From Pseudomonadota bacterium (GTDB lineage: Bacteria; Pseudomonadota; Gammaproteobacteria; Acidiferrobacterales; Acidiferrobacteraceae), in NCBI GenBank assembly GCA_021816625.1, contig JAKAXM010000013.1, positions 1-64,000 on the forward strand: DNA of 64,000 bases, in the 5' to 3' direction. Positions 7,967 to 12,311 of the stretch are shown here, piece after piece; position 1 is the stretch's first letter, and the number at the start of each line of letters is the position of its first letter. Made by a program: the position numbers and the translations under genes. The notes under the pieces were generated by a model that was not told where the DNA came from, did no database searches, and worked only from the letters and a program-made list of their open reading frames with translations.

Positions 7967-8841
7967 TCGCGGTAACGCTTCTGGAGATCGGCGTAGGCGT
8001 CGATACGCCGGTCGCGGAGAAACGGCCATATCTGACGGGTCCGTTCGCTATGCCCCGGGTCGATCTGTGCCAGCACGATACCGGGCTCGGCACCGGCGCG
8101 GGCGAGCCATTCCCCTTGGGGGCCGCAGGCAAAGCTTCCGCCCCAGAAGGCGATACCGGAGGTGGCGCCACTTGGGTCGTTTTCGAGTCCACAGCGATTG
8201 GCGACCAGCACCGGGATCCCGTTGGCGACGGCGTGACCGCGCTGGACAAGCTCCCAGGCCTCTTTCTGGCGCGTCTTTTCGGCATCATCGTCGCGCGGAT
8301 CGAAACCGATCGCCGTGGGATAGACGAGCATGTCGGCGCCGGACAGCGCCATGAGGCGCGCGGCCTCCGGATACCACTGATCCCAACAGACGAGGACGCC
8401 CAGACGGCCGACGCTCGTGGAGATGGGGTGAAAGCCGAGATCCCCGGGCGTGAAGTAGTATTTCTCATAGAATCCCGGGTCGTCTGGGATGTGCATCTTG
8501 CGGTAGCGGCCGACCAGCCGCCCATCGTTTTCAAAGACCACGGCCGTATTGTGGTAGAGACCGCTCGCCCGGCGCTCGAACAAGGACCCTACGATCACCA
8601 GGGACAGGTCGCGCGCGAGCGCCCCGAGGCGCTCCGTGGAGGGTCCTGGTATGGGTTCGGCCCGCGCGAATTCCGCCGCATTCTCCCATTGGCAAAAGTA
8701 GGGCCCGTTATGCAGTTCCTGCAGCACGGCAAGCTTGGCACCCTGGGCCTTGGCCGCCCGCAGGCCTCCCTCGATACGGCCCCATACGTCGTCTGGGCTG
8801 CCGCTCGCGCTGTGTTGAATCAAGGCCGCGCGCAGGCTCAT
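7963..8841 (-). CDS. aguB: N-carbamoylputrescine amidase
   Basis: A nitrilase-superfamily hydrolase that converts N-carbamoylputrescine to putrescine, CO2 and ammonia, the second step of the agmatine route to polyamines. The catalytic Glu42 (QELHNGPYF), Lys115 (YRKMHIPDDPGFYEKYYF) and Cys152 (VCWDQWYPEAARL) are all present, and the flanking sequences are typical of AguB rather than generic nitrilases. It has 292 residues. The ATG at 8841 overlaps the aguA stop as ATGA, and its own stop overlaps rsmB as TTGA. Its immediate partner is the agmatine deiminase gene. Confidence 0.95.
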   Translation of the reverse strand: MSLRAALIQHSASGSPDDVWGRIEGGLRAAKAQGAKLAVLQELHNGPYFCQWENAAEFARAEPIPGPSTERLGALARDLSLVIVGSLFERRASGLYHNTAVVFENDGRLVGRYRKMHIPDDPGFYEKYYFTPGDLGFHPISTSVGRLGVLVCWDQWYPEAARLMALSGADMLVYPTAIGFDPRDDDAEKTRQKEAWELVQRGHAVANGIPVLVANRCGLENDPSGATSGIAFWGGSFACGPQGEWLARAGAEPGIVLAQIDPGHSERTRQIWPFLRDRRIDAYADLQKRYRD

Positions 8842-9911
8842 GTCAGCACCCCGGCCGGTATTTGCATGGTCACGCAGTGCAGGCTGCCATGTTGGGCGAT
8901 CAAGGTGAGGCACGGAATGCCGATGATACGCCGTCCCGGGAAGCAGGCGCTTAGGATGGCGAGGGCCTCCGTATCTTTGCTGTCGTCGTAGGTCGGGACC
9001 AACACGGCGCCGTTTAGGATCAGGAAATTGGCATAGGTCGCCGGCAGGCGCGTCCCGTCGTTCGCGAGTTTGGCGCTTGGCCACGGCAGCGGCACGAGCC
9101 GGTAGGGCTGGCCGTCGGCCGTGCGCAGTGTCTTCAATTCCTGTTCCATGGCCTGCAGGGCCGGGTAGTGTTCGTCATCGGCGTAGGGGCATGCGCAATA
9201 GGCGATGGTCGCGGGGTCACAGAACCGGGCGAGCGTATCGATATGACCGTCGGTGTCGTCGCCGGCGAGGTAACCGTGGTGCAGCCAGAGGATGCGCTGG
9301 GCGCCTAGCTGAGCGGCGAGGATCGCCTCGATGTCGGCGCGCGTATGCTGGGGATTGCGGGTGGGGGCGAGCAGGCAGCTTGCGGTGACGAGGAGGGTAC
9401 CGGCCCCGTCGGAGTCGATGCTGCCGCCCTCCAGCACGAAGTCGACCGCCTCCCGCGGGATGTGTCCGAACGCCCCTTGTTCATAGAGGGTGCGCGTGAG
9501 GGCATCGTCCCGCTGATAGGGGTATTTGCGCCCCCAGCCGTTGAAGCTGAAATCCAAAAGCTTAAGGCCGTGGGATGTTGCGACCGTGAGGGGGCCATGG
9601 TCGCGCACGAAAACGTCGTCCGAGGGGGCGTTTGCAAAGCGCACGTGGGCTCGATCGGCCCCTGCTTCTTGTAGGGCCGCCTCCACGCGCTCGCGCTCGG
9701 CGCTACGGGCGAGCGTCACAAGCACTGTCTGATGATGGCTTATCGCGGCGGCAATGGCCGCAAAGGTGCGATCGGCTGCGGCCAGCGTGTCGGCCCAGTC
9801 GCTATCGGCGTGAGGCCAGGTCAGCATGACGGCCGATTGCGGTTCCCATTCGGCGCTCAGCCGGCGGTCTTCGGCCGGACGGTCGGCGCGGCGCATCATG
9901 ATTGTGGTCAT
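8838..9911 (-). CDS. aguA: Agmatine deiminase
   Basis: Hydrolyses agmatine to N-carbamoylputrescine and ammonia; AguB completes the path to putrescine. It is a member of the guanidino-modifying (peptidyl-arginine deiminase fold) superfamily. Substrate and catalytic motifs are visible: DVFVRDHGP near residue 100, FNGWGRKYP, LEGGSIDSDG, GDDTDGHID, and the nucleophile Cys346 in GSLHCVTMQIP near the C-terminus. It has 357 residues, close to the family size. It is the first gene of the minus-strand run. An arginine decarboxylase to supply agmatine is not in the window. Confidence 0.95.
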   Translation of the reverse strand: MTTIMMRRADRPAEDRRLSAEWEPQSAVMLTWPHADSDWADTLAAADRTFAAIAAAISHHQTVLVTLARSAERERVEAALQEAGADRAHVRFANAPSDDVFVRDHGPLTVATSHGLKLLDFSFNGWGRKYPYQRDDALTRTLYEQGAFGHIPREAVDFVLEGGSIDSDGAGTLLVTASCLLAPTRNPQHTRADIEAILAAQLGAQRILWLHHGYLAGDDTDGHIDTLARFCDPATIAYCACPYADDEHYPALQAMEQELKTLRTADGQPYRLVPLPWPSAKLANDGTRLPATYANFLILNGAVLVPTYDDSKDTEALAILSACFPGRRIIGIPCLTLIAQHGSLHCVTMQIPAGVLT

Positions 9912-9943: not shown

Positions 9944-10645
9944 TTAACGGTTTAGGGCCGCCGCGCCAAGGCCGGTCGCGCCCAGGGCCGCAGTCAGGAA
10001 GTCCTTGAGGTCGGCCAGTTCCGGCGCGCTTACGGTATGCGCCATCGGGTAGGTGTGGAGCTTGGCGGGCACCCGGTGCTGGGCGAGCACGGCCTGGGTA
10101 CGTACGGCCGCGCTGTAGGGGATCATGGGGTCCTGGGTGCCATGGCCCAGGAATACCGGGGTCTGGTCGTTGACGGGGAACCCGTCGCCCAGGCGATGGG
10201 CAAGAGGCAGGTACGTCGATAATCCAACCGTGGCGGCCAGCCGGACGGGGGCCGTGAGCATGGTGTAGAGAGCGACGGCGCCGCCCTGGGAAAATCCACC
10301 GAGCACGATCCGCTCGCCCGGCACGCCCTGGCGCTCCTGGTCCCTGATGAGCTCGAGCACGGCACAGGCCGCCTGGCGGATACCGACCTCGTCTTGCGGG
10401 TCTTCGGGACGCGTGCCGTAAAGATCAAACCAAGCGGGCATCGCAGCGCCGCCGTTTAGAGTCACGTTTTGGATCGGTGCGTGGGGAAACACGAAGCGGA
10501 GGTCCTGGTCGGTAATCCCCGCCAAGCTGTCCACGAGGTCGGTGAAGTCGTGACCATCGGCCCCCAGGCCATGGAGCCAGATGAGCGCGTAACGCGGATG
10601 TGGCCCGGAGACGAACTGAAGCGGCGGTCTGACGAAAAAAGCCAT
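9944..10645 (-). CDS. Carboxylesterase/phospholipase family alpha/beta hydrolase
   Basis: A 233-residue cytoplasmic serine hydrolase of the Abhydrolase_2 (EstB/acyl-protein thioesterase-like) family. The catalytic triad reads Ser119 in GFSQGG, Asp172 in GHGTQDPMIPY and His203 in YPMAHTVS. The oxyanion-hole region LHGLGADGHDF is present. No signal peptide is seen. The natural substrate cannot be predicted; family members cut short acyl esters. It lies 57 bases downstream of the CsrA-like gene on the same strand, and aguA begins 32 bases beyond its end. Confidence 0.88.
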   Translation of the reverse strand: MAFFVRPPLQFVSGPHPRYALIWLHGLGADGHDFTDLVDSLAGITDQDLRFVFPHAPIQNVTLNGGAAMPAWFDLYGTRPEDPQDEVGIRQAACAVLELIRDQERQGVPGERIVLGGFSQGGAVALYTMLTAPVRLAATVGLSTYLPLAHRLGDGFPVNDQTPVFLGHGTQDPMIPYSAAVRTQAVLAQHRVPAKLHTYPMAHTVSAPELADLKDFLTAALGATGLGAAALNR

Positions 10646-10702: not shown

Positions 10703-10918
10703 TCAGCGGCTGGGGACGTCGGTACGCGCAGCGGCCCGTCGCACGCGCAGGGGTCGTGCGGTCGTCACGGCCAGACGCGCCGCTGCAGCGCTCGTGTGGG
10801 CCACGACGATCTCAATGGGACCCGTTGCGAACAAGGCCGCGGCGGTCAATGTGGGATCGGTCTCGGGATCGAGGGCGATCAGGATGCGTTCACCGCGCTT
10901 GCGGGTGATCATGAGCAT
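10703..10918 (-). CDS. Divergent CsrA-like protein
   Basis: A 71-residue protein whose N-terminus MLMITRKRGERILIA matches the start of CsrA, the global post-transcriptional regulator that binds GGA motifs in mRNA leaders. The middle and end differ: the usual VRIGIxAPxxxxVxREE segment, which carries the key RNA-contacting Arg44, is replaced by an alanine-rich stretch (IEIVVAHTSAAAARLAV). A short insertion precedes that strand. It may be a paralogue with altered RNA specificity, a heterodimer-forming regulator or a decaying copy. It lies upstream of the esterase gene and divergent from the DUF1015 gene. Confidence 0.65.
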   Translation of the reverse strand: MLMITRKRGERILIALDPETDPTLTAAALFATGPIEIVVAHTSAAAARLAVTTARPLRVRRAAARTDVPSR

Positions 10919-11096
10919 AAGGTCTTACGTCCCGGGTGAGCCAAGCGGCGCCGGCCCGACGCGCTTTCTCCTACCGTTGTAGCTGGAGGCGATGTCGCAG
11001 TCGATAGCTTTTCGGCGACAAAGTGAGCGGGCCCGCCCCGTTTACTTGGGCCGTGAAATCAGATTGAATGGCGGTCTTTTGAGAGCAGGGACACCC

Positions 11097-12311
11097 ATGA
11101 GCCTGATTCATCCCTTTCGTGGCTTGCGACCGCAAGGCAACCGTGCCGCCGAGGTCATAGCCCCGCCTTACGACGTCTTGAGTAGTGCCGAGGCGCGCGC
11201 TGCGGTGGCCGGTCGGCCCTTGAGTTTTCTGCGCGTCTCAAAGGCGGAAGTGGATCTGCCGGAGGCCACGGCCCCTACCGACGAGGCCGTGTTTCGGCAG
11301 GCCGCCGCAAATTGGGCACGGCTACGTGCAGCCGTACTGATCCGGGATGAAAAGCCCTGCTACTACTGTTACGAGCTGACCATGGGTCAGCACGTCCAGC
11401 GCGGCTTGGTCGCGGCCGCCTCGGTGGCCGCCTATGAGGCAGGCCGTATCCGCCGCCATGAGCTCACGCGGCCGGACAAGGAGCGCGACCGGGCCCGCCA
11501 CATCGAGGCCTTGAATGCCCAGACGGGACCGGCCTTCCTTACCTTTCGGGCCGACCCCGAGATCACCGCTTTGTTGCAGGAGGCGGCGCGCGGGGAGCCG
11601 GCGGTCGATGCGCTGTTGAATGATATCCGTCATCGCCTCTGGGTCGTGGCCGACGCGGGCCTGGTGGCGCGCTTGACCGACGCCTTCGAAGCGCTCCCGC
11701 GTGTCTATATCGCCGACGGCCACCACCGGACGGCCGCGGCCCGGGTGGTGGCGCATGGGCGCGGGGGCGTGGACGGGCCCCATCACCGTTTTCTTGCGGT
11801 GCTGTTTCCCGACAACGAGATGCAAATCCTGAATTACGACCGGCTGGTCACCGACTTACATGGGCACACCGTCGCGGCCTTCCAGTCGGCGCTCGCCCCG
11901 TCTTTTGCGCTCACCGAAGCGCCTGGCCCGGTTCGGCCGCAGGGTCCCGGGGAGTTTGGTATGTATGTCGCAGGGCGCTGGTATCACCTGCGCTACCGGG
12001 GCGTCCTTCCCGCCGATCCGGTAGCGCGGCTCGATGTGAGTCTGTTGCAGGACCGCGTATTGGCGCCGATCCTGGGGATTAGCGATCCGCGCCGTGACCA
12101 GCGCATCGATTTCGTGGGCGGGGTGCGGGGACCGCAGGCCCTGGCGGAGCGGGTGGATCGCTCCGGGGGTGTGGCCTTCGTGCTGTTTCCGACGCGGCTG
12201 GCCGATCTCATGGCCGTCGCCGATCAGGATGGGGTGATGCCGCCGAAGTCGACTTGGTTCGAGCCCAAGCTCGCCGACGGCCTCGTCTCTTATACTTTGG
12301 AGGACGATTAG
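11097..12311 (+). CDS. DUF1015 family protein
   Basis: A conserved bacterial/archaeal protein of unknown function; here 404 residues. Characteristic family motifs are present: an N-terminal PFRGLRP and APPYDVLS, a central RHELTRPDKERDR, and YIADGHHRTAAA, which resembles a nucleotide- or phosphate-binding HH motif. No signal peptide or membrane helix is seen, so it is cytoplasmic. ATG 11097 is chosen because the family begins at MSLIHPFRG; in-frame upstream codons from 10992 are unrelated. Its 3' end overlaps that of the convergent DUF3579 gene by 4 bases. Confidence 0.85.
   Translation: MSLIHPFRGLRPQGNRAAEVIAPPYDVLSSAEARAAVAGRPLSFLRVSKAEVDLPEATAPTDEAVFRQAAANWARLRAAVLIRDEKPCYYCYELTMGQHVQRGLVAAASVAAYEAGRIRRHELTRPDKERDRARHIEALNAQTGPAFLTFRADPEITALLQEAARGEPAVDALLNDIRHRLWVVADAGLVARLTDAFEALPRVYIADGHHRTAAARVVAHGRGGVDGPHHRFLAVLFPDNEMQILNYDRLVTDLHGHTVAAFQSALAPSFALTEAPGPVRPQGPGEFGMYVAGRWYHLRYRGVLPADPVARLDVSLLQDRVLAPILGISDPRRDQRIDFVGGVRGPQALAERVDRSGGVAFVLFPTRLADLMAVADQDGVMPPKSTWFEPKLADGLVSYTLEDD

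Follow-up and report, generated by a model that had tools for sequence, protein, structure and literature searches.

The gene csrA2 (an rsmN-type csrA) is an open reading frame at positions 10703..10918 (-) of the window, the stretch of 64,000 nucleotides that was analysed, and encodes a protein of 71 amino acids from an ATG start codon at 10918. A gene of the carboxylesterase family (Abhydrolase_2; 9944..10645 (-); Pfam E=1.1e-51), possibly co-transcribed with csrA2, begins 57 bp downstream and is followed by a gene of the agmatine deiminase family (PAD_porph; 8838..9911 (-); Pfam E=1.1e-119), while a DUF1015 gene lies divergently upstream (11097..12311 (+); Pfam E=8.2e-90). The assignments of the last two genes are also supported by synteny: nearly all loci of the genus (Acidiferrobacter-like) that are reached by the fetched stretch, and three loci from genera g2 and g3 as well, share the arrangement of a divergent DUF1015 gene, csrA2, the esterase gene and the agmatine deiminase gene. 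The exceptions were locus L009, which yielded no esterase match, and locus L012, which yielded no match on its short side.

The csrA2 product matched the Pfam model CsrA over residues 1-62 (E=1.9e-4) with 21.8 bits, a score that for the single sequence lies below the curated cut-off of the family (PF02599, 27 bits). An earlier note on this DNA had described the first 15 residues as CsrA-like, which they are, and the protein as a second, divergent copy of CsrA. The canonical csrA that the note had suggested looking for is indeed present at another location of the same genome (G000:C5; 90.5 bits), and the protein considered here (insert-type, after the insertion described below) is far more divergent than the canonical CsrA of the same genome.

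Orthologues of csrA2 were found in all 13 other genomes of the genus, i.e., the gene is kept in 14/14, and canonical and insert-type csrA each occur once in every one of these genomes. The pairwise dN/dS of csrA2 was 0.11-0.32 for the ten closest pairs within the genus (Nei-Gojobori, with many synonymous sites near saturation). The median pairwise value was 0.28; for the canonical csrA of these genomes it was 0.057, and by this measure csrA2 evolves about five times faster. Because orthologues occur in 13/13 genomes, next to the same neighbours and with dN/dS well below 1, csrA2 is not a chance ORF; it is a real, maintained gene under purifying selection. That csrA2 is a decaying copy drifting towards loss, as the faster rate and the lack of a match in an 80%-complete genome, one of the three from genus g2, might suggest, is highly improbable for a gene that is intact in 14/14 genomes, shows dN/dS values this low and has kept both its promoter and its RNA-contact residues. 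Plasmid and phage records searched for relatives of csrA2 yielded no match, which gives no support to a mobile origin.

Insertion, RNA-contact residues and predicted fold

Alignment with canonical CsrA and RsmN places an insertion of 17 residues, P18-P34 (PETDPTLTAAALFATGP; 10817..10867 (-)), between beta2 and beta3; an insertion had also been reported in the earlier note. When it is opened in the alignment, residues A54-R55-P56-L57-R58-V59-R60-R61 pair with the CsrA strand P37...V40-x-V42-x-R44, and R61 (codon at 10736..10738 (-)) becomes the equivalent of Arg44 of CsrA/RsmA and of Arg62 of RsmN. R61 is present in 14/14 genus members and in 24/27 other insert-type proteins, and in an alignment of 20 relatives it is invariant together with G9, I14, L29, P34 and E36. 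The strand with the universal arginine had been thought to be replaced, which the alignment contradicts. Regarding the APxxxxVxREE segment, likewise reported as replaced, the strand aligns across the insert, but the second Glu of the REE motif is gone: position 63 is P, S, G or A in 14/14 genus members, and its equivalent is Glu in 18/27 other insert-type proteins. Judged by the alignment, the RNA-binding half is displaced by the insertion, not replaced, and retains its contact arginine; what has really changed is that 17 residues are inserted between beta2 and beta3 and that the REE glutamate and the C-terminal helix are missing.

RsmN of P. aeruginosa has 71 amino acids, carries a 16-residue insert between beta2 and beta3, is without a C-terminal helix, contacts RNA through Arg9, Arg49, Arg56 and Arg62, and, unlike RsmA, does not dimerise by domain swapping (PMC3791407). 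These contacts correspond to K7, R48, R55 and R61 of the window's protein, and the equivalent positions in the genus are occupied by K/R (14/14), R (14/14), R/K (11/14) and R (14/14), respectively. RsmN and RsmA also have in common an Arg8-Glu64 salt bridge, a pair that is conserved in ten published RsmN sequences. Its arginine is kept as R6 in 14/14 genus members; its glutamate partner is lost, and the protein is for that reason described here as RsmN-like and not as RsmN itself. In a csrA mutant of E. coli K-12, assayed by glycogen staining, RsmN does not complement.

Similarities to RsmN/RsmF (PDB 4kji, 4k59, 4krw) comprise the length of 71 amino acids, an insert of 16-17 residues at the beta2/beta3 junction with Gly at its end and Ile/Leu close after, the absence of the C-terminal helix of RsmA, the basic contact residues including the Arg62 equivalent, the predicted monomer fold, and the position as a second paralogue beside a canonical RsmA/CsrA. 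The differences are an identity of only about 23-25% in structural alignments, an insert that is one residue longer and has a GP(I/L)E motif, the loss of the Glu64 equivalent in the genus, a different genomic place (linked to XRE-type genes in related families), and a transcript that is predicted to be leaderless in most of the genus. With canonical CsrA/RsmA (PF02599) the protein shares the beta1 motif MLxxTRKxGE, the order beta3-beta4-beta5 and the Arg44 equivalent, but it has the insert instead of a short turn between beta2 and beta3, has neither the REE glutamate nor the C-terminal helix, scores under the family cut-off and evolves faster.

A profile of 20 relatives compared with the PDB yielded RsmF/RsmN as the best matches (4k59, E=5.1e-8; 4kji, E=6.4e-8), with an alignment that continues through the insert, whereas canonical CsrAs are matched in separate blocks around it. 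A phmmer search of the PDB with the single csrA2 protein yielded only unrelated designs. The AlphaFold monomer model (41-sequence alignment; pLDDT 91.7, pTM 0.71) shows strands at residues 2-7, 11-16, 36-42, 46-52 and 57-62, i.e., a predicted five-stranded unit, together with a short insert helix of four residues (26-29) and no helix after residue 62, where the tail is of low confidence. The inserted segment of RsmN/RsmF-type proteins is an alpha helix, of which the model shows only these four residues. Foldseek placed RsmN/RsmF entries at ranks 1-4 with probability 1.00, no other entry exceeding 0.11; the E-values (0.04 to 0.3) are weak for so short a chain. In VIA-align the RsmN/RsmF structures 4kji, 4k59 and 4krw gave Z 8.0-8.8 (rmsd 1.8-2.0 Å over 62 residues), and the next, unrelated chain gave Z 2.3. 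The structure prediction suggested in the earlier note, run for the monomer, thus returned a CsrA-family fold of the RsmN/RsmF type, and the insert-type chain is predicted to close alone as a non-swapped sheet like that of RsmN.

This model also bears on the proposal, made in the earlier note, that the csrA2 product is a modifier which heterodimerises with canonical CsrA and blunts or redirects it. Such a role would agree with the co-occurrence of both genes in 14/14 genomes and with the CsrA-like sequence of the beta-strands, but it is disfavoured, and we consider it improbable, since the monomer model is self-contained and its only good structural matches are RsmN/RsmF, the former of which does not strand-swap (PMC3791407). 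A monomer control with canonical CsrA, which left beta1 and beta5 outside any sheet, points in the same direction; the control is weak because its alignment held only 8 sequences, and its confidence is low (pLDDT 73). The other reading offered in the earlier note, binding to different RNA, may hold.

Distribution and descent of insert-type CsrAs

Genome contigs scanned with the single csrA2 protein yielded no relative; the scan that found relatives used an alignment of 11 sequences as query. Matches occurred in 34/57 genomes of the order at E 1e-4 and in 27/370 genomes of the class sample at E 1e-6. In the phylum sample, full-length insert-type matches were restricted to the class, the other matches covering just the canonical second half; the six best matches from outside the genus all come from a single family, f149, and resemble relatives of Pseudomonas RsmN. 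Insert-type CsrAs therefore span many gammaproteobacterial families, RsmN having been described as a rearrangement within Pseudomonas.

Regarding the origin of the insert, free trees placed the f149 proteins and Pseudomonas RsmN with canonical CsrAs and not with the Acidiferrobacter group. This topology would be expected if similar inserts had arisen independently, at one and the same junction, in the Acidiferrobacter group and in Pseudomonas RsmN, in which case the csrA2 product would function in the manner of RsmN but would not share its insert by descent. A single clade of all insert-type proteins was not rejected, however (p-AU 0.63, insert columns left out), the tree constrained to one clade had a slightly higher likelihood than the free tree, and the insert sequences look alike (e.g., LSLKPGADEEQVLDQLFNGGI in L102 and IDLDPGADPDLRAADLFAWGPLEI in L003). 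Separate gains are a rather unlikely reading, but the insert may have arisen once or twice.

At two loci a canonical csrA is immediately preceded, on the same strand, by an insert-type csrA, an arrangement resembling a tandem duplication (L050:1501-1948 and L051:1501-1933). One genome of the order, G018, contains eight insert-type csrA matches (L040, L063, L087-L090), several of them beside XRE genes or fragments.

Predicted promoter, XRE-type partner and proposed role

A predicted promoter of csrA2 lies at 10976..11009 (-), 57 nt upstream of the ATG, and consists of the -35 region AGCTATCGACt, a spacer of 17 nt and the -10 element CTACAAC. At 16/17 family loci, from the genus itself and from genus g2, the DNA upstream of csrA2 contains the pattern GGCTATCGAC-N17-CTACAA, in one case with an 18-nt spacer and in one case starting with AGC; the elements were read by eye as -35 TCGACg, 17 nt, -10 TACAAa. 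In a pattern search of the window's genome the promoter site was the only place with one mismatch, all others having three. A scan for sigma-70 promoters and terminators yielded nothing above its thresholds, the csrA2 promoter included. Directly upstream of the promoter the DNA alignment revealed a conserved box (11010..11025 (-); cactttgtcgccgaaa here, TTGTCGCCGATC in most relatives), which is perhaps the site of a regulator.

The predicted -10 element precedes the ATG by 5-6 nt in 10/14 species of the genus and by 29-65 nt in the other four (57 nt in the window). A Shine-Dalgarno match of four bases or more is absent from csrA2 in 12/14 species, and canonical csrA has AAGGAG or AGGAG in 14/14. 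Given the short distance and the missing Shine-Dalgarno sequence, a leaderless csrA2 mRNA is predicted in 10/14 species, i.e., in most of the genus, though not for the window's own copy. The latter has a predicted leader of about 57 nt (10919-10975 (-)) with two GGA motifs, GGTAGGAGAAA and CCCGGGACG, as possible CsrA-type sites; most relatives have no such leader. An Rfam scan of the neighbourhood yielded nothing, and a search of the genome for the RsmZ family yielded only a chance-level match.

Among the insert-type loci of the order outside the genus, 22 of 29 have an XRE-type HTH domain within 170 bp upstream of csrA2, in 18 of these 22 on the same strand, and in many loci the xre stop codon abuts or overlaps the csrA2 start. 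Families f1, f2, f5 and f7 are represented; several of the loci are close relatives or paralogues, and the independent cases are therefore fewer than 22. Elsewhere in the class just 1/29 insert-type loci had an XRE neighbour, and canonical csrA loci had none (0/29; about 3 kb searched). The XRE neighbour of the related families matched the C proteins of restriction-modification systems (C.AhdI, E 4.5e-9; C.BclI, E 5.1e-9), but its partner gene is an insert-type csrA, and in the window's genus no XRE gene was found at the csrA2 locus. XRE relatives at other places in genomes of the genus (60-67 bits) were not taken as the missing partner, and XRE relatives in the class sample had no CsrA-like gene within the stretch fetched. 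In genus g2 it is the xre ATG that the promoter precedes, by a similarly short distance, and the best site for a matrix derived from the genus lay 6-8 nt upstream of the xre start codon in 15/17 loci of the order (200 nt scanned); single matrix scores are often no better than those of shuffles, and the evidence is thus the common position, not the scores. Since xre is widespread in the order, we infer a loss in Acidiferrobacter and not a gain in the other groups. The titles and abstracts of an incomplete literature collection contained no description of a csrA-XRE pair or of a leaderless csrA.

Taken with the fold, these features make csrA2 probably an RsmN/RsmF-type paralogue whose product acts as a non-swapped, GGA-binding homodimer regulating translation, and whose gene would have taken the place of xre at its promoter and, in most species of the genus, be transcribed without a leader. 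The insert between beta2 and beta3 would allow a single chain to complete the five-stranded sheet without a partner, and the resulting RsmN-like homodimer would present two GGA-binding surfaces, formed by K7, R48, R55, R61 and the beta5 strand. By binding GGA near translation starts, as the fold and the conserved residues suggest, it would repress or modulate the translation of mRNAs that may overlap only partly with the targets of canonical CsrA. The related families of the order would have csrA2 as second gene of an xre-csrA2 operon. In Acidiferrobacter, where xre is absent and csrA2 occupies its place at the same promoter, transcription would begin only a few bases from the ATG in most species, giving an mRNA that lacks the Shine-Dalgarno region, the usual site of action of CsrA-type repressors. 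More tentatively, and as a possibility we would not favour at present, an old leaderless operon of xre and an RsmN-type gene may have formed a combined transcriptional and post-transcriptional module, of which Acidiferrobacter lost the DNA-binding half from start codon to start codon, csrA2 thereby escaping Shine-Dalgarno-directed control by CsrA. The spread of insert-type CsrAs over many families, together with their link to a small DNA-binding regulator in one order, provides naturally occurring variants with which to study how an inserted segment can convert a strand-swapped dimer into a self-contained one, and what use cells make of having two CsrA proteins.

In another order of the Gammaproteobacteria, one genome encodes an insert-type CsrA that is fused in frame to a C-terminal XRE-like HTH (L042:1246-1695 (-)). 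Both parts of the fusion score above their cut-offs (CsrA, 42 bits; HTH_31, 30.6 bits), and a further XRE gene lies divergently upstream of it.
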